Shown piece after piece: positions 1,776 through 23,180 of a stretch of 43,970 nt of DNA. The translations under genes were made by a program, and so were the position numbers. The stretch comes from a virus, in IMG/VR virus record IMGVR_UViG_3300030117_005432, positions 1 to 43,970 of that record; one strand, written 5' to 3'. Below the pieces are notes generated by a model. It had not been told where the DNA came from. It ran no database searches and saw only the letters and a program-made list of their open reading frames with translations. Numbering within the stretch: the first letter of the stretch is position 1; each line of letters begins with the position of its first letter.

Positions 1776-3399
1776 TTGTCACATCCTCTGTAATCTGTCC
1801 ACCAATTCTTTTTGCAAAAGAGTTCTTAATAATCTCCATATCCATGTCGTAACTGTCTACTGTAATAACGTGTCTTATTTTTGATATCAAGTAATTACCG
1901 CTGTAAAGTTGATGTCCTATTTCTAATGAATTAATATTTGGGTCATCGTCTGGAATACTTGTCGGCATTTCAAAACGAATTAAATCCCCTACGTGTTTTG
2001 ACGTATTACCAGGCACAGTGAATTTAACAACTATACTACCAAACTCTTGAACCTGAGCTTCTCTTTGTAATAACCAGTTTTCAACATTGTTTTGTTTTGA
2101 TTCAGGATCTTTAAACGTGTCACTCTTAACACCTATCGAAGAACCATTTTCAGATGGTAAAAAAAGTTCACCATGATTCTTGGTAGTTGTTGCAAGTTTT
2201 ATTGATGCATCATTTGAACCAAGAAACTCAGATTCAGAACTTACAAATTTATTTGATTTTTTGTCAATGGGATTTATGTCTGTTGCTATGAAGTCACCAA
2301 ACACCCTATTAGAATCATCTGTCAAATTTTCTGGTTCTTCTTTTATTTCTTCTACACCAGTATCATCGTCAACCTTTATTGACTGATTATTTTTCTTTTG
2401 ATAGTAGTCATATTTAATTGTATCATATTTCATGCGAAGTGGGTCATATGCAATCAATTTTGAAGCAAACAATCCATAACCTAAGTTCTCAAGTGTCTTA
2501 AATGATGTATCCACCTCGAATTGTTCTACATGAAAAAATCCAACTGCTAGTTCTCCACTTTTACTCTCTGCGAGTTTTGGTGCGTATTGATAAAGTGGTA
2601 AGTCACCAGCCATTTTCTGTTTGACAATCAAACTTTCTATAGATTCGTAGAAAAATCCTGCTCCTAATTTTTCATAGAAGACAAACAAAGAACCAACTGG
2701 TCTTGGGGGTGGTGGTGCAGTTGTGTCTCTTTGTTCTGTGGGTTCAATGTCTGATGACAAAGAACGTGAAGCGCAAAAGTTGATTGCTTGAAATGGAGTC
2801 CAGTTTGGTACTATGACATTTTGTAACGATAAGGTTTTTTCAATAAAAATTTTTTTATGAAAATCACTTTTGATGTTTTCATTAACCTTACTCATCAAAT
2901 CTTTAACTATCTTTGAATACTCTGTACCCTTGTATCCTTTACTGACCTTCTTTTTCATGTTGAAAACATACTCTTCACTCACAAAAAACATCTTATAGAT
3001 TTTTGTGCGTTCTTGTGTCCCAGCTTCTACAATGTCATAAACCTTAAAACGTTGACGATTTGCTTCTTCTATATTAGTTTGTGAAGTTCTCTCTTGTTCA
3101 AGAGATGTTCCCTCACCGCCTGGAGTGAAGAACGTCATGATAAGTGTTTCCTCACCAATAAACGGAAACAACTCTGCTAATCCTTGAGAATCAAGAATTG
3201 TCAAAGTTCCACGTAGAACATTTGAAAACAAGTCCTCAAAAATCTCCATCTGTTGAAATACAGATGATGAGTTCAATTGTACTACATCTCTATTATTTGG
3301 AGAATGAAGTGACAACTCAAGAAGACGAAAATCTCCATCAAAATTAGGAGCTGTATAATCTGGTTGTTTTGCTTTAGAATCAACGTTGGTTTCTGCCAT
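1765..3399 (-). CDS. 27: Baseplate hub subunit, gp27-like
   Basis: 544 residues. The start is the ATG at 3399 (MAETN); an in-frame TTG six bases upstream is less likely. It sits directly upstream of the gp5-like gene, and in T4 gp27 forms a trimeric ring holding gp5. The N-terminus has a beta-rich pattern typical of hub proteins (FRLLELSLHSPNNRDVVQLN, then FEDLFSNVLRGTLTILDSQG). A proline-rich linker lies mid-protein. It is longer than T4 gp27 (391 aa), as is common in marine relatives. The family call is by architecture and synteny, not by clear motif. Confidence 0.7.
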   Translation of the reverse strand: MAETNVDSKAKQPDYTAPNFDGDFRLLELSLHSPNNRDVVQLNSSSVFQQMEIFEDLFSNVLRGTLTILDSQGLAELFPFIGEETLIMTFFTPGGEGTSLEQERTSQTNIEEANRQRFKVYDIVEAGTQERTKIYKMFFVSEEYVFNMKKKVSKGYKGTEYSKIVKDLMSKVNENIKSDFHKKIFIEKTLSLQNVIVPNWTPFQAINFCASRSLSSDIEPTEQRDTTAPPPPRPVGSLFVFYEKLGAGFFYESIESLIVKQKMAGDLPLYQYAPKLAESKSGELAVGFFHVEQFEVDTSFKTLENLGYGLFASKLIAYDPLRMKYDTIKYDYYQKKNNQSIKVDDDTGVEEIKEEPENLTDDSNRVFGDFIATDINPIDKKSNKFVSSESEFLGSNDASIKLATTTKNHGELFLPSENGSSIGVKSDTFKDPESKQNNVENWLLQREAQVQEFGSIVVKFTVPGNTSKHVGDLIRFEMPTSIPDDDPNINSLEIGHQLYSGNYLISKIRHVITVDSYDMDMEIIKNSFAKRIGGQITEDVTNAN

Positions 3400-3409
3400 G
3401 ATCAATCAA

Positions 3410-3988
3410 TTATGATAAAAGTGTTTTCTTTACTTCATAATCTATGTCTTGTATGAAATCTGGATTTATGATATTAATATTTCTTTTATTGTCGTTCAAT
3501 TCAACCTCATAGTCGTAAACGTTTTGTGCAGACCTTACAGAAGCATCAAGTGAATTGTAAGTTGTTTGATCTACTATAATTTTGTATTCTGGTGCTCTCT
3601 CACTTGTCCCTGTCCTTGTAACCTCTGCACGAACTATCTGATAGTAATACTTATTTGTCGCCTGTGCAGATGCAATACTTCCATATTGTTCGATGATGTA
3701 ATTTTCAAACTGTCTTGACGGAAGAGGCCAGTCAAACAGAGGATCAACAATATTATTCAAGAGAAGAATCAAATACGCATACGCAACTGTTCCATACTTT
3801 TGAAAAGACACAATGTCTGGTCGTTCACCTTCTTTGACATAGTAAGGATAATAATCGGTAATGTTCTCTATGACAGAAGGTTTGAAACGAACTCGTTTCA
3901 TTATGTTTGTGACAGTCGTAAACTGATTTGGTTCAGTTCCGTTTATGTCGTATTGAACGTTTGGTATGTTTCTAAAATAATTTGCCAT
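3410..3988 (-). CDS. 53: Baseplate wedge subunit gp53-like
   Basis: 192 residues, matching the T4 gp53 length (196 aa). The pattern YYVKEGERPDIVSFQKYGT, then AYLILLLNNIVDPLFDWPLP, is the LysM-like fold of gp53, where a short-lived contact domain reads (E/P)RPE-x-(I/L)A-x-x-x-YG-x-x-x-x-x-W-x-x-x-x-x-N. In T4, gp53 joins neighbouring wedges around the hub. It ends 10 bp upstream of the hub gene start, and the same order (53 before hub) is usual in marine T4-like phages. Confidence 0.78.
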   Translation of the reverse strand: MANYFRNIPNVQYDINGTEPNQFTTVTNIMKRVRFKPSVIENITDYYPYYVKEGERPDIVSFQKYGTVAYAYLILLLNNIVDPLFDWPLPSRQFENYIIEQYGSIASAQATNKYYYQIVRAEVTRTGTSERAPEYKIIVDQTTYNSLDASVRSAQNVYDYEVELNDNKRNINIINPDFIQDIDYEVKKTLLS

Positions 3989-10405: not shown

Positions 10406-11020
10406 TTATTCATAATGCAATTCTACTTGTTTCTTCAGTATGTCTACATATTTCTGCTTATTCACAACCAAGAATGGCGCATACTTAATACACATACTAT
10501 ATAGGTTCGGCCATATGACCGACTCTTCTATCTTCTTATTGAAAACCGAAGAGAACCTAAGAATCGAGTCCATGATAATGAAGGACTCAATCGACAAATC
10601 TCCGCCAAATACCGAGCGAAGCACAGGTGGATGTTGACCATCCACACAATCAAAAAGTGTATTAAAATCATTATAATCATCAAGAATCTCATCAACCTCA
10701 TTCTCGAAAACATATGGAAGACTCTGGATTTTTGACTTCCATGAGATATAATTTTCTCTGCCTTCTGGACTTGTAAGATTACCAATCCAAAGGTCGCTTG
10801 ACTTAACGAAATTAGAGACAAAAAATTTAGTGAGGTCTTCTTCTTTATAAATTTTTGAAAGACGGACAAAATGATGTTTGTCCTTTCTGTTTTCAAACGA
10901 ACTTGCATTCGCTCTTACTTTACCCTTGAACTTGAAGTAATCATAATCAACCCTGTTGAAATGTTGTTTCAACGACAAATACTTTTGATATACTTCAAAA
11001 GGAGTCACCTTTGGAATCAT
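10406..11020 (-). CDS. 59: Loader of replicative helicase gp59
   Basis: 204 residues (T4 gp59 is 217). It follows the T4 pattern throughout: an N-terminal VYQKYLSLKQHF helix, FFVSNFVKSSDLWIGNLTSP in the middle and DLSIESFIIMDSILRF in the C-terminal half. gp59 loads the gp41 helicase on gp32-covered forks. Synteny with gp33 upstream and gp32 downstream matches T4. The start overlaps the gp33 stop by ATGA. Confidence 0.88.
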   Translation of the reverse strand: MIPKVTPFEVYQKYLSLKQHFNRVDYDYFKFKGKVRANASSFENRKDKHHFVRLSKIYKEEDLTKFFVSNFVKSSDLWIGNLTSPEGRENYISWKSKIQSLPYVFENEVDEILDDYNDFNTLFDCVDGQHPPVLRSVFGGDLSIESFIIMDSILRFSSVFNKKIEESVIWPNLYSMCIKYAPFLVVNKQKYVDILKKQVELHYE

Positions 11021-11253
11021 ATAGGGAGTTTTGCTGTTTTCGGTAAAAAGTGCAATTGTTCCGCTTCTTCACGAAGTTTCATTTTCAAGTTTGCGTTTAT
11101 CAACTTTGCAATCGTTTCCGATTCCAGTTTGTTTTCGTCAGCATGGTGAAGAATGGCATCAAGATACTTCATACCTGTTCTCTCAACCAATTCTTCAACC
11201 TCTTGATTATACTGACTTGATGTATACACGTTTAATGTTTGTTCCATATTCAT
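11017..11253 (-). CDS. 33: Late transcription coactivator gp33
   Basis: 78 residues (T4 gp33 is 112). The core EVEELVERTGMKYLDAILHH and the C-terminal KLREEAEQLHFLPKTAKLPI match gp33, which binds the RNA polymerase beta flap and links it to the sliding clamp for late transcription. A consensus sigma70 promoter ends only ~12 bases upstream of the ATG, so the mRNA would have almost no leader. A second possible start is the ATG at 11247. Confidence 0.87.
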   Translation of the reverse strand: MNMEQTLNVYTSSQYNQEVEELVERTGMKYLDAILHHADENKLESETIAKLINANLKMKLREEAEQLHFLPKTAKLPI

Positions 11254-11294: not shown

Positions 11295-11669
11295 TTATTC
11301 TGCTGGTTTTTCTTTAAGGTCTTGACTCTCTTTATGCTCTGGGTCATCCTTATCCTTAAACCAGTAATCAGTCGATTTTGCTAATACCGCAACATAGGCT
11401 CCAACCATGATATTAACCAAATCTCTCGATGCTTGAGGTAACTCAGCATAGAATAATAACCAAACCAAAAAAATGAACGTTGTAACTATAATCAAAGAAA
11501 GAACAAATCTAGCATACCAATTCATTTTTTTGCGTTTTTCAACATTGTTGTGATTTAACGCCTCCATTGGATTTTGTTCCCATAATTTTTTTTCTTCATA
11601 TTCTACCATTTCTTCAACTGAATCAATTGTTCCATCATCACTATCGTTTTTCTTCTTAAATATAGCCAT
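11295..11669 (-). CDS. Small membrane protein with two predicted TM helices (possible holin)
   Basis: 124 residues. A charged N-terminal half (many Glu/Lys) is followed by MNWYARFVLSLIIVTTFIFL as one membrane segment and a second hydrophobic helix (RDLVNIMVGAYVAVLAKSTD). The tail is short and highly charged. Two-helix proteins of this size with charged tails are often holins or phage membrane proteins, but no family motif proves it. An AGGA ribosome site lies before the ATG at 11669. The gene directly follows the terminator of the tmRNA coding piece. Confidence 0.65.
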   Translation of the reverse strand: MAIFKKKNDSDDGTIDSVEEMVEYEEKKLWEQNPMEALNHNNVEKRKKMNWYARFVLSLIIVTTFIFLVWLLFYAELPQASRDLVNIMVGAYVAVLAKSTDYWFKDKDDPEHKESQDLKEKPAE

Positions 11670-11685
11670 GATTATTCCTAAAATT

Positions 11686-11721
11686 AAAAAGGTGAGGGTC
11701 TTCTGTTCCCAAGTGACCCTC
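11686..11721 (-). terminator. Hairpin and T-run after the tmRNA coding piece
   Basis: Stem GAGGGTC (11721-11715) with GACCCTC (11700-11694), 14-base loop, then ACC and TTTTT (11690-11686) and more T. It fits a rho-independent terminator and may also be the last helix of the tmRNA coding piece. Confidence 0.65.
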
Positions 11722-11881
11722 TGTACTCGGCTATCGGTTACGCAGCAATTGCGTAATATTCCGATGCAGATGTATAATCAGCGTTATTTGCGATTATGTT
11801 TAGTTGCACTTTCACAGTCGTTGCTCAACTGGATACCTCCTTACATGACCTAATCGACCAATCGAATACCTTGACATCCCC
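11690..11881 (-). ncRNA. ssrA: Permuted two-piece tmRNA, coding (mRNA-like) piece
   Basis: On the minus strand it begins GGGGATG at 11881, which pairs over 7 bp with the acceptor piece 3' strand CATCTCC (11987-11981), including a G3-U70 wobble, the alanine identity pair. Then comes GGTATTCGATTGG, like the conserved GGATTCGACGG of tmRNAs. The resume codon is GCA at 11791-11789, preceded by TAATC. The tag reads ANNADYTSASEYYAIAA and ends at the TAA at 11740-11738. A 7-bp hairpin GAGGGTC/GACCCTC (11721-11694) closes the piece. The 3' end is approximate. Together with SmpB of the host it would rescue stalled ribosomes and tag proteins for proteolysis. Confidence 0.92.
11738..11791 (-). CDS. tmRNA-encoded proteolysis tag
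   Basis: Seventeen codons from the resume GCA to TAA give ANNADYTSASEYYAIAA. The C-terminal YAIAA is a ClpXP-type degron like the LAA/VAA ends of bacterial tags. The tag is longer than the E. coli one (ANDENYALAA). It is read only during trans-translation, not from its own start codon. Confidence 0.85.
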   Translation of the reverse strand, partial: ANNADYTSASEYYAIAA

Positions 11882-11882
11882 A

Positions 11883-11969
11883 TCAAAATAACACGAACCC
11901 CAGCGCCCATATTATGAAAGCACAAATTCCAAATATAAGGAATGAGAGTAAAATATCGTGTCCGTCCAT
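11883..11969 (-). CDS. 28-residue membrane microprotein inside the tmRNA intervening spacer
   Basis: ATG at 11969, TGA at 11885-11883. The N-terminus is MDGHD, followed by one hydrophobic helix (ILLSFLIFGICAFIIW, then ALGFVLF). AAGG lies 4 bases before the ATG, just after the CCA end of the acceptor piece. The frame fills 87 of the 95 bases between the acceptor CCA and the G1 of the coding piece. No homologue is known to me. AT-rich DNA readily gives hydrophobic codons, so translation is a hypothesis, though the clean start, ribosome site and single helix favour it. Confidence 0.5.
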   Translation of the reverse strand: MDGHDILLSFLIFGICAFIIWALGFVLF

Positions 11970-11976
11970 GTTACCT

Positions 11977-12035
11977 TGGTGGAGATGGCCGGAATCGAAC
12001 CGGCGTCTTAATCGCTATCCATGCATATCCACAGT
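11977..12035 (-). ncRNA. ssrA: Permuted two-piece tmRNA, acceptor piece
   Basis: The 3' end reads CATCTCC-A-CCA (11987-11977), with CCA encoded. The T arm is GCCGG-TTCGATT-CCGGC (12004-11988). Upstream, ACTG (12035-12032), GATA (12029-12026) and TGCATG (12025-12020) can pair with CAGT, TATC and CATGTA of the coding piece to make helix 2. There is no anticodon arm or D arm here, so this is not an ordinary tRNA. The 5' end is approximate. The piece overlaps the last ~20 bases of the nuclease gene. The gene order acceptor-spacer-coding is the permuted order known from alphaproteobacteria and some cyanobacteria. Confidence 0.9.
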
Positions 12036-12764
12036 ATCAGAAATATTTATTTGTTTTTGTTTTCGTTGATAGTGAAAAGCGTCAGCAATTGACTTTAACC
12101 TACGAATGTAATCCAGAGGATTGTAAACTCTCCAATCTATGTAAATGTCTTGATCCATGAAAGGATTTGGTTTTCTTGAGTCAAACCGAATAAAAGAACA
12201 AATTACAATATTCTTTGGAATCATTCCGTAAAGTTCATACAACATTCTACTGTATGCGGTTCCTTGTAGAATGTACGACAACATGATTTCTTCTTTCTTG
12301 ATGTAAGTGGCTGTCTTCCAATCGATGATAGACAACTCACCTTGGTAATCTGCTACTAGGTCAGACGTTCCTGCAAGTCCAAGTGAATCAGACCACATAC
12401 CAAGTTCAATACCACGAATATTATCAACTCGTTCATCAATCTGTTTCAGTCCAAGTTGAATCAGTTCACGATTCTCTTGAGGAACACCCTCAAAGTAAGT
12501 ATCATCACCACGAAGATATTTTTCAATGGAGTTATGAATACGAGTTCCACGACTTGCAGCCCTTGTGGAAATTTTCTTCGCTTCTTCTTCTCCTATTCTT
12601 TGTTTCCACGCATCAATGCCTGGTTTTGTTACCATGTAATATAACATATTGGTTACGGATGCATACGTTCCGTTTGGACCATGATATACTCTATCACTTC
12701 CCGAATTATCTTGTTCTAAGAGATGTTTTTTATTTTCAAGAAGATCATAATTAAATTGTTTCAT
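12015..12764 (-). CDS. RecB/Cas4-like PD-(D/E)xK exonuclease
   Basis: 249 residues. The motifs SRGTRIHNSIEKYL (H77), GLAGTSDLVADY (D135) and LSIIDWKTA (D148, K150) are those of the RecB-like nuclease group that includes MGME1-type and Cas4-type exonucleases. An N-terminal YASVTNMLYYM segment is also typical. Such a gene is common in marine T4-like phages and probably acts in DNA recombination or degradation. Its last seven codons and stop are shared with the acceptor piece of the tmRNA, which limits change at its C-terminus. Confidence 0.85.
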   Translation of the reverse strand: MKQFNYDLLENKKHLLEQDNSGSDRVYHGPNGTYASVTNMLYYMVTKPGIDAWKQRIGEEEAKKISTRAASRGTRIHNSIEKYLRGDDTYFEGVPQENRELIQLGLKQIDERVDNIRGIELGMWSDSLGLAGTSDLVADYQGELSIIDWKTATYIKKEEIMLSYILQGTAYSRMLYELYGMIPKNIVICSFIRFDSRKPNPFMDQDIYIDWRVYNPLDYIRRLKSIADAFHYQRKQKQINISDTVDMHG

Positions 12765-20214: not shown

Positions 20215-22167
20215 TTATAAGTCCACTACTTCACATCCTCCGTCACCAGAAGAACAGGCTAACTCTTGTGCTCCGATTGTGTAATCCTGTGCTTCATAGT
20301 TTGAAAGTAGTGCCCAATCCACTTCCTGTGGAATTGTTTTGAGTGCTTCTTCGTATTCTTCCTTACTGCAATCTTGGTAAGGTGCTTGTCTGTATGTATG
20401 CTCACTGAAAGGAAGAAAAGAAATACCACTGATTGTGTCAAAATTATCCCAAACCCAAGAACCAACTTCCATCCATTCGTTCTCTTTGACAGAAATGGTT
20501 ACAGATGGTTTGTGTTCACACCAATGAGTTTGGTATGTCATCCAAAGTTTTAATTGGTCAATTGCAGTCATATCTTGTCTGCAAACAGCATTTTCTGGTG
20601 ATTGCATCGGAAAAGAGAATACAGTTGTGTGTTTTGGTTTCATCACATCTGCTTCATTTGGAAACCCTGCATCCTTCATCATTTTGCAGAGCGGGTCTTT
20701 GTTATCCGCTCGTACTGTTCTAATATAATAAGGATTATGACGAGCATGTATACCAGAGGCAGAATCAACAAGCTGACTAACTGTACCAGAAGGTTTAACG
20801 CAAGTGATTGCCGCTGATTGTGGGATTCCGAGTTTTTCTGACCACTCTTTGTTTGTTTTGATTGCTTCTTCTCGTAGTTCGTCCAATAACTTTTCAAGAC
20901 CTTCCTCCTGTCCATTTGTTTTTGGGTTGTCCATTATTCCTGTGAGGGAAACTCCAAGGAGTCTTTCTTCATCGCAGTTTCGTTTCCATTCTTTTGTGAG
21001 GTACTTGAAATTGGTAAGAGTGGATTGGAAAGTGCCAAGGATTGTCGCAAGTTTAACTTTCTGGCGAAGTGATTTAGCAGTGTCCCATCTACGAATAACG
21101 ACTTCTGAGAGGTTGCAAAATTCTCTGCTTCTAAGAATGATCTCAGAGCAGGGGTTAGTTCCAAAATCTTCTCTTGGTTGTCTTCTTTCTTGCTCATCTG
21201 TATTCATCCTTTCTACTTGCTTCATGGCAGAAACACCATTATAGATTCCTCTTTCACCTGACTTGGAATCATAGAGTGACAACCATTCTCTCATAAAAGT
21301 TCCAATGTCTGGTCTTCCCTTGTAATTGACCGAATTGTTTGCGAGTGCTCTTTGTGGTTGTGACTCCCACCATTGACCTGACTTTGCGTGTCTCATCGTT
21401 TCGTCATTCAGATTTGAAAGTGAGATCAAAGCACTTCTGCGAACTCCACCCACCACTACGATTTCTGCAATCTTGCAAACGAGATCATGACACTCAACTG
21501 GTTTTAGTTTTCGTCCAGCTGCATTACGAAACATATTGACTGAAAAATTAAAAAGGTCATCCAATGGTTCTGGACCAGATGCACGACCACCAAATGTCTT
21601 GAGTGGTTTCCCTGCAGCACGGACTTTTGACAAATCCCAATTCGGAACCTGACCTGTCCAAAGTAAACTGTAAAGTTCTTTAAGTGCTTTTGCCCATCCA
21701 AGTTTTGAATCTGCAACGACAATGGTTGTGTCAGTTGGATGAAACTCTTCTGCAATTGGTGACATTTGATTTACAAACTCGTCCTCTACAGAGAATCCAA
21801 CACCAGTTCCATTCATCAACACGTAAAGAATCTCATCAAAAGACCTTGGAGAATCAACTTTTACGTAAGAACAATTGTATCCTGCAACGTTTTCTTTCTT
21901 GAGTGCCTCACCAGCGGTCATCAAACATCTCATCGATGGCATCACATCAAGAGCGAGAACACCCTGTTTCATCTCTTCCAGTTCTCCGTTCTCTAAAGTG
22001 TAGTCGCATTGTTCTTGTAAGTGTTCTTGGAAAAAACTAAAATAACGATTGACTGTTTCTGCCCAGGTTTCACGGCGTTCATTTTCATAGTCCCACCTTG
22101 CATACCTTGATAAGTGGATGAATTGTTGATATTGTGTGGGTAATACAGCTGGGTCTTGTAACTTCAT
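20215..22167 (-). CDS. nrdJ: Adenosylcobalamin-dependent (class II) ribonucleotide reductase
   Basis: 650 residues from the ATG at 22167 (GGAG upstream; ATGA overlap with primase). A TTG 12 bases further up is less likely. The monomeric class II pattern is clear: NVAGYNCSYVKVDSPRSFDE (redox Cys), DFGTNPCSEIILRSREFCNL (radical Cys, Glu and second redox Cys), CVKPSGTVSQLVDSASGIHA, and the C-terminal CSSGDGGCEVV pair. It makes deoxynucleotides from ribonucleotides using vitamin B12, with no oxygen need. Classical T4 uses class I NrdAB instead. No cobalamin riboswitch is visible. Confidence 0.92.
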   Translation of the reverse strand: MKLQDPAVLPTQYQQFIHLSRYARWDYENERRETWAETVNRYFSFFQEHLQEQCDYTLENGELEEMKQGVLALDVMPSMRCLMTAGEALKKENVAGYNCSYVKVDSPRSFDEILYVLMNGTGVGFSVEDEFVNQMSPIAEEFHPTDTTIVVADSKLGWAKALKELYSLLWTGQVPNWDLSKVRAAGKPLKTFGGRASGPEPLDDLFNFSVNMFRNAAGRKLKPVECHDLVCKIAEIVVVGGVRRSALISLSNLNDETMRHAKSGQWWESQPQRALANNSVNYKGRPDIGTFMREWLSLYDSKSGERGIYNGVSAMKQVERMNTDEQERRQPREDFGTNPCSEIILRSREFCNLSEVVIRRWDTAKSLRQKVKLATILGTFQSTLTNFKYLTKEWKRNCDEERLLGVSLTGIMDNPKTNGQEEGLEKLLDELREEAIKTNKEWSEKLGIPQSAAITCVKPSGTVSQLVDSASGIHARHNPYYIRTVRADNKDPLCKMMKDAGFPNEADVMKPKHTTVFSFPMQSPENAVCRQDMTAIDQLKLWMTYQTHWCEHKPSVTISVKENEWMEVGSWVWDNFDTISGISFLPFSEHTYRQAPYQDCSKEEYEEALKTIPQEVDWALLSNYEAQDYTIGAQELACSSGDGGCEVVDL

Positions 22168-23180
22168 TTCCTTCTCCAAATTGCGAGTTGTGTTTTTGCG
22201 AGTAATCCTTGGTAAGTGAATTTATTTATCATTTCTGAAATTTCAGTAATCCCTGCATTCACCATGTCGTTGATGTCTTTCTGTTTGACATGATCTGGCC
22301 AGATACAGACCTTCCATCCATAATCAATCACTCTTTCTATTCTTTTTATGATCTCTAAATTTCTTGGTTCGTTGTCAAACACCATCGTTCCTATTCCGTC
22401 CTGCATTGCACTGGAAACATCCCCCATTGCACTTACTTTGATGTCAGAACCCGCCATGGCAATACAATTTGGCAGAAACATTGAATCTATTGGACCTTCA
22501 ACTACATAAAAAGGTTTTGTCATATCAAGTGTATCAAGTCCAAAAATCTTTGGTGCATCTTCATCAATTTTAATTGTGATGTATCTTAATTTAGTGTTCG
22601 TAAAAGCACGACCTTGAAATGCAATCAAATTCTTATCTTCATTGAAAAAGGGAATAATGATTCGTGCTTCTTTTTCATTCAAGTCATAATGTCTTTGTGT
22701 CAACTTGTAAGTAAATCCCTTGAAGTCATCTGTGAAGTATAAATGATTAAGATAACTTGGTGGTATTCCACGATTGACAATATATCGTTTTGCATAATGT
22801 GTATCATCAAGTTCACTTATCTTAGGAAGTTCAATTGACTGATAGAAAACTGGTTTCTTGTGCTTGAACTCTGGGTTTGGAGTTGTGGTTGATTTACCTG
22901 TCAGTCCCTCTTTGTATCTCTCAAGGACATACTGTTTGTATAACTCACCATCAACCTGTTTTAGAAAATTTGTGAACGTGTTACTCTGTCCACAATTATG
23001 ACAATGAAAGAAAAGGTCTGTCCTCTTTTGATAGAGATAACCACGAGCTTTCGTTTTCTTTTTCTGCGAATCGCCACAGAACGGACAACGAAAGTTGTAG
23101 AGATTGGTTGTTTTTTGTTTGAAGAGGGGTAAACGAGAAGAAACTAGGTTGACGTATTTCGTATCAATATAAGAAGGCAT
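22164..23180 (-). CDS. 61: DNA primase gp61-like
   Basis: 338 residues (T4 gp61 is 342). Zinc finger C32/C35 and C60/C63 (RCPFCGDSQ, FFHCHNCGQS), then a TOPRIM-type core (FYVVEGPIDSMFLPNCIAMA, TMVFDNEPRNLEII). It makes RNA primers with the gp41 helicase. It has its own sigma70 promoter 40-65 bases upstream, and leads the nrdJ operon. No good ribosome site precedes the ATG at 23180. Confidence 0.9.
   Translation of the reverse strand: MPSYIDTKYVNLVSSRLPLFKQKTTNLYNFRCPFCGDSQKKKTKARGYLYQKRTDLFFHCHNCGQSNTFTNFLKQVDGELYKQYVLERYKEGLTGKSTTTPNPEFKHKKPVFYQSIELPKISELDDTHYAKRYIVNRGIPPSYLNHLYFTDDFKGFTYKLTQRHYDLNEKEARIIIPFFNEDKNLIAFQGRAFTNTKLRYITIKIDEDAPKIFGLDTLDMTKPFYVVEGPIDSMFLPNCIAMAGSDIKVSAMGDVSSAMQDGIGTMVFDNEPRNLEIIKRIERVIDYGWKVCIWPDHVKQKDINDMVNAGITEISEMINKFTYQGLLAKTQLAIWRRK

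Follow-up and report, generated by a model that had tools for sequence, protein, structure and literature searches.

A phage-encoded permuted tmRNA gene with a putative protein-coding gene in its intervening sequence

Comparative analysis of a 43,970-bp IMG/VR virus fragment (the window, meaning here the whole stretch of DNA analysed) makes it very probable that the phage locus described below encodes a working permuted tmRNA and that the intervening sequence (IVS) of this tmRNA gene is at the same time protein-coding, a reading for which sequence is the only evidence. The tmRNA is of a known kind, and what is new is the coding IVS. The middle of a permuted tmRNA gene, which has been treated as waste, would be a gene that a whole clade of marine T4-like phages has conserved, and a non-coding RNA precursor would gain a second role as messenger, with peptide synthesis linked to RNA processing. 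The same evidence would reveal an unannotated family of phage membrane peptides that gene callers miss. A literature search, in which most subscription papers were outside reach, found no earlier report of a protein-coding tmRNA IVS.

The only Infernal match to Rfam across the whole window was to RF04321 (tmRNA_permuted), on the minus strand at 11738-12038, with a score of 101.3 bits (E 9.7e-19) against a cut-off of 47 bits; the match spans model positions 1-213 of 213. ARAGORN, which is independent of Infernal, calls a permuted tmRNA at the same locus with the tag ANNADYTSASEYYAIAA. An earlier note, made from the sequence alone, had proposed a permuted two-piece tmRNA on the minus strand at 11690-12035, and these two programs confirm it. 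The models for two of the individual forms remained below their cut-offs, namely alpha_tmRNA (RF01849; 37.7 bits against 50) and beta_tmRNA (RF01850; 46.8 bits against 84). The locus shares with the permuted tmRNAs of RF04321 (alpha, beta and cyano forms, RF01849-RF01851) the gene order, an acceptor with G3-U70, the T arm and the tag frame, but it differs from them in its IVS, which bears an apparently selected protein-coding ORF. A DNA comparison with deposited phages gave no match to the locus.

As in other permuted genes of this type, the acceptor half lies upstream of the coding half, and its CCA end is encoded. This tRNA-like 3' half occupies 11977-12038 on the minus strand by the RF04321 alignment, with its T arm from 12004, and its 5' end is approximate, being placed at about 12038 by Rfam and at 12069 by ARAGORN. 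The IVS follows at 11882-11976 (minus strand), between CCA and the complementary GGGGATG; such a spacer is expected to be absent from the mature two-piece tmRNA. The coding half, at 11738-11881 on the minus strand, was delimited by RF04321, ARAGORN and covariation, and consists of the 5' acceptor strand GGGGATG (its first bases, 11881-11875), helix strands and the tag frame. The acceptor strands CATCTCC and GGGGATG pair at 7/7 positions, with G3-U70 present. The tag reading frame, called by ARAGORN at 11738-11791 (minus strand), runs from GCA to TAA, and thus has a resume Ala codon, a hydrophobic-Ala-Ala end and an in-frame stop. Its end, YAIAA, presumably fits a ClpXP-type degron, and the tag as a whole has no likeness to any bacterial tag retrieved for comparison. 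Behind the tag lies a hairpin, GAGGGTC..GGGAACAGAA..GACCCTC, followed by a run of T (11694-11721, minus strand), which is likely the 3' structural domain of the coding piece. It was not among the reported terminators in a terminator prediction, and the same hairpin, with AACAGAA in it, is also found behind the tag in related phages and in the phages Melnitz and HTVC008M (discussed below).

Related phages were sought through the gene immediately upstream of the tmRNA, which encodes a PD-(D/E)XK-type exonuclease (phrog_298; 12015-12764, minus strand) and matched 55 IMG/VR contigs. ARAGORN found a permuted tmRNA directly behind the exonuclease gene in 37 of the 55, and direct reading of the sequences added 11 complete tmRNAs and one that is cut off at a contig end. 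The arrangement is therefore present in 49/49 relatives with enough downstream sequence, the remaining six contigs ending too soon to judge. The exonuclease neighbours, together with searches by tag and peptide pattern, gave 99 distinct tmRNAs with an ANNxDY tag; these copies are related, so that counts among them are not independent events. The acceptor is paired at 7/7 positions in all 99, in seven sequence combinations that all have G3-U70, and the last three residues of the tag are hydrophobic-Ala-Ala in nearly every copy. When RNAalifold was applied to 96 of the sequences with the IVS removed, it recovered the acceptor, the T arm and the helix beside it; each shows compensatory changes and several pair types, i.e. 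covariation between the halves. At the level of aligned sequences, then, the tmRNA core, tag and acceptor are demonstrably conserved with covariation.

Most of what the earlier note had read from the window alone is borne out by these comparisons. The acceptor half ending in CCA, the GGGGATG coding half and the 95-base spacer lie where it had put them. The 7-bp acceptor stem with G3-U70 holds in the window and in 99/99 distinct relatives, and the tag end YAIAA with its TAA stop agrees with the ARAGORN tag and follows a pattern conserved in relatives. The note had held that its reading would be refuted if no tmRNA covariance model matched and the tag or acceptor stem were not conserved in related phages; the Infernal/Rfam search that it proposed gave a match, and both features are conserved. 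The outcome was mixed for helix 2. The window does contain the pieces that had been pointed out, they agree with the Rfam alignment, and equivalents recur in relatives, some with compensatory variants, but the crude helix count in relatives is barely above that in shuffles. Helix 2 is thus less well proven by the alignments than the acceptor stem.

The role suggested for the RNA in that note, ribosome rescue or redirected proteolysis during infection, is plausible, although it is inferred without functional data. Neither the window nor a 177-kb relative nor any of seven further virus records yielded an SmpB gene, and host SmpB would therefore be needed. The lack of a detected phage SmpB would also suit a tmRNA that serves as a decoy, titrating host SmpB rather than performing full trans-translation. 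Such a role has been proposed for the tRNA-like-domain-only RNA of phage DS6A, and a phage tmRNA reduced to that domain does inhibit host tmRNA when expressed (PMC11915505; PMC4131195). A decoy would, however, need neither a full tag frame, nor an in-frame stop, nor a degron-like end, all of which are conserved here, and we consider this explanation unlikely.

The length of 95 nt given for the spacer in the earlier note is exact, but the spacer is not empty, and a complete 28-codon ORF within it had been overlooked. The IVS of the window reads AGGTAAC-ATG-...-TGA-T, in which the Shine-Dalgarno-like leader AGGTAAC directly follows CCA. The ORF, at 11883-11969 on the minus strand, encodes MDGHDILLSFLIFGICAFIIWALGFVLF followed by TGA, and it stops one base short of the first G of the coding half, the RNase P site. 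It was recognized by in-frame conservation, pN/pS and hydropathy, the last of which predicts a single transmembrane peptide as the product. Among the IVS longer than 70 nt, 80 of 86 hold an ATG ORF contained in the IVS, and dinucleotide shuffles of the same IVS lead one to expect 14.8 (a chance rate of 17%). The ORFs of relatives start 4-20 nt after CCA and usually end 1-17 nt before the coding half; a clear Shine-Dalgarno core is found in only 49 of the 80 leaders.

Because the tmRNA copies are related, codon-level selection was given more weight than these ORF counts. In the family of the window's ORF (7 distinct sequences), pN/pS is 0.129 and the variable columns are distributed 6/4/23 by codon position, third positions holding 23 of the 33. 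Three other membrane-peptide families gave pN/pS values of 0.162, 0.33 and 0.50, and the out-of-frame controls, in which the same alignments were shifted by one or two bases, gave 0.75-2.95. The frame of one further clade (L148; four sequences) is without purifying selection, with a pN/pS of 1.06. These substitution patterns establish, on comparative grounds and in the absence of transcript, ribosome-profiling or proteomic data, that the IVS carries an ORF under purifying selection.

The predicted products are of more than one kind. Sixty-four of the 80 ORFs encode peptides of 26-32 aa with a transmembrane-grade hydrophobic stretch, and the other 16 encode a hydrophilic, lysine-rich basic protein of 52-59 aa (family D). 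Three other phage contigs (L242, L243 and L244) carry family D as a gene on its own, and pN/pS across IVS and stand-alone contexts is 0.35; by this measure it is a real protein family, able to reside inside or outside a tmRNA gene. A search of IMG/VR for another family, C (pattern MEKKLMW), outside a tmRNA IVS gave only four unrelated 7-residue matches. As judged from the predicted proteins, then, the IVS slot is filled by unrelated small proteins in different phage clades. Like the small single-span membrane proteins of phages and bacteria, the window's peptide falls in the 26-32 aa range and has one hydrophobic span, but it is encoded inside an RNA gene, and neither it nor the other IVS peptides match a Pfam or PHROGs family. 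Their role is therefore a guess, the likeliest class being a small inner-membrane effector of late infection, involved in lysis timing, superinfection exclusion or modulation of host membrane proteins. In one IVS, of 267 nt (L183), some 99 nt lie beyond the basic-protein ORF, and they include a possible second ORF, GTG-started and hydrophobic, behind a GGAG site.

Some members have no ORF, their IVS being only 15-58 nt and including apparent deletion remnants. Those of L134 and of a group with a 58-nt IVS (L122, L151, L168, L169, L203 and L206) look like remnants of a deleted peptide gene in an intact tmRNA, and two other tmRNAs, otherwise intact, have a basic-protein ORF that is interrupted either by a nonsense codon (L029) or by a frameshift (L031). 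From such ORF-less or broken copies it follows that the peptide is dispensable in places. They also bear on the converse idea, that the tmRNA has lost its function and is kept merely to provide the small membrane-protein gene with a leader or a processing scaffold. The conservation of the IVS ORF could be cited for this idea, as could the fact that the mature tmRNA has not been observed. The clades with the short IVS nevertheless keep the tmRNA, and neither the acceptor covariation in 99/99 copies with its constant G3-U70 nor the conserved end of the tag would be expected of a mere scaffold, which leaves the idea scarcely credible.

Permuted tmRNAs from other sources served as controls. In a class-wide RF04321 search, used as the bacterial control, 131 of 142 sampled alphaproteobacterial genomes scored above cut-off. 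The IVS of the copies examined were mostly 5-50 nt, and among six distinct ones longer than 70 nt a single one held an ATG ORF, by chance. A pattern scan of bacterial contigs had been tried as a control and was rejected, the yield being mostly one-piece tmRNAs and chance matches. A loose pattern search of IMG/VR brought up 52 loci of other permuted tmRNAs with an IVS of similar length, and three of these contain an ATG ORF that is 20 codons or longer. In two of those three (L081 and L116), which are phage-like by contig and have a tmRNA tag of betaproteobacterial type (ANDEKFALAA), the IVS encodes a membrane-spanning peptide, MTHKEEKRQLILFCVPAVAIILALVFL; this is possibly an independent case of an IVS-encoded membrane peptide.

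That spacers are non-coding in bacteria and in most other phages, and that shuffled spacers themselves yield an ORF at a rate of 14.8/86, might suggest that the permuted tmRNA of the window is nothing more than the usual phage kind, that its spacer is non-coding and that the ORF is a chance frame in AT-rich DNA. The shuffles and the codon-level selection largely refute this. A chance frame would account neither for ORFs in 80/86 spacers, nor for the strong third-position bias and the pN/pS of 0.13-0.50 in several unrelated families, nor for the stand-alone copies of family D, nor for the in-frame indel in the Melnitz-like ORF described next, and we regard it as very improbable.

Phage-borne permuted tmRNA was already known, and that of the window is not the first. 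A two-piece tmRNA was reported in phage Melnitz in 2022, and about 53 such RNAs were found in 18,146 phage genomes, mostly marine (PMC9004378). Methylophilales phage Melnitz (MZ577097) and the phage of the window are both T4-like and marine, and both have the tmRNA between a PD-(D/E)XK nuclease gene and gp33; Pelagibacter phage HTVC008M is also a T4-like marine phage with a permuted tmRNA. Their tags, ANDNYVPVDYALAA in Melnitz and ANFNEYALAA in HTVC008M, differ from that of the window, and the IVS of HTVC008M is short and without an ORF. PMC9004378 describes the gene of the Melnitz tmRNA as non-coding and places it under a proposed glutamine riboswitch; a search at E up to 10 found no riboswitch beside the window's tmRNA. 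In the Melnitz IVS, of 142 nt, a GGAG site precedes an ORF, MFKWLSKTRLVVITRDYFRERNRKADAKIPKYLSGTRSVYD, which reads through the RNase P site to a stop codon 42 nt inside the coding half; this ORF is different from that of the window and is unannotated. A conserved IVS ORF of the Melnitz type is present in MZ577097 itself (in the region 3181-3633) and in L442-L459, and crosses the RNase P site in most of them. Melnitz relatives keep the IVS frame, including across an in-frame 24-nt (8-codon) insertion, with a pN/pS of 0.32. The frame closes before the RNase P cut in one relative (L457), and in another (L461) a non-coding hairpin stands in place of the ORF. According to a tmRNA database paper of 2025, mature tmRNA lacks the IVS, and the paper's only cases of odd IVS content are a tRNA-Ala gene in one tmRNA and a repetitive element in another (PMC11915505). 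These are likewise extra content inside an IVS, but they are single cases and none was reported to be protein-coding.

Expression of the locus can be modelled from a T4-like late-promoter-like -10 element, AATAAATA, at 12044-12051 on the minus strand, which was identified by motif and whose promoter function is inferred. It ends 5 nt before the Rfam-predicted 5' end of the acceptor piece. ATAAATA is the T4-type late -10 motif; it occurs 45-130 nt upstream of CCA in 74 of the 99 distinct relatives, and only 7 times on the minus strand of the whole window. A late transcript would start at this promoter and begin with the acceptor half, and host RNase P together with 3'-end enzymes would release from it an acceptor piece and a coding piece, which would pair and be charged with alanine. 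During infection the tmRNA, together with host SmpB, would then free ribosomes that have stalled on broken mRNA, and would append a degradation tag that ends in YAIAA. The excised IVS fragment would be nearly all leader, ORF and stop and would keep the ribosome-binding site, and either this fragment or the whole transcript may be translated into the 28-aa membrane peptide. One transcript would serve for both, and the output of peptide and tmRNA would thus be tied to one promoter; ribosomes on the IVS ORF would compete with, or be released by, tmRNA maturation. Over time, the IVS slot may have received unrelated small proteins in different phage clades, or been emptied again, with the tmRNA retained throughout.

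A further proposal, which must be considered tentative and on balance doubtful, is that the phage tmRNA IVS is an exchangeable cargo slot dedicated to small host-takeover proteins, with translation of the cargo mechanically coupled to tmRNA maturation in that the RNase P cut would end or truncate the cargo message. If this is true, processing in the Melnitz-like phages would leave a nonstop message, because the ORF crosses the RNase P site, and maturation would thereby turn the ORF message into a substrate of the very tmRNA being made. Melnitz is a cultured phage, which makes the coding IVS testable now.

The genome setting agrees with the description of the virus as T4-like in the earlier note, since genes of T4 type, found with PHROGs among other methods, include those for gp32, gp59, gp33, PhoH, an exonuclease, gp2, gp4, the tail tube and the baseplate. 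The assignment of the record to a T4-like marine phage, of Kyanoviridae type by its core genes, holds, without a formal taxonomy. In the window's clade the exonuclease ORF overlaps the tmRNA 5' region by about 24 bases (12015-12040 of the window, minus strand), and those of the relatives examined stop before the tmRNA. On the other side of the tmRNA, the gp33-like late transcription coactivator (phrog_254) is encoded at 11017-11253 on the minus strand. Between the two, at 11295-11669 (minus strand), is the gene for a 124-aa protein with a hydrophobic segment, whose matches are all weak and fall in families without a known function. Farther away, at 20215-22179 on the minus strand, the window encodes an adenosylcobalamin-dependent ribonucleotide reductase that shares 63.6% identity with the enzyme of Puniceispirillum phage HMO-2011.
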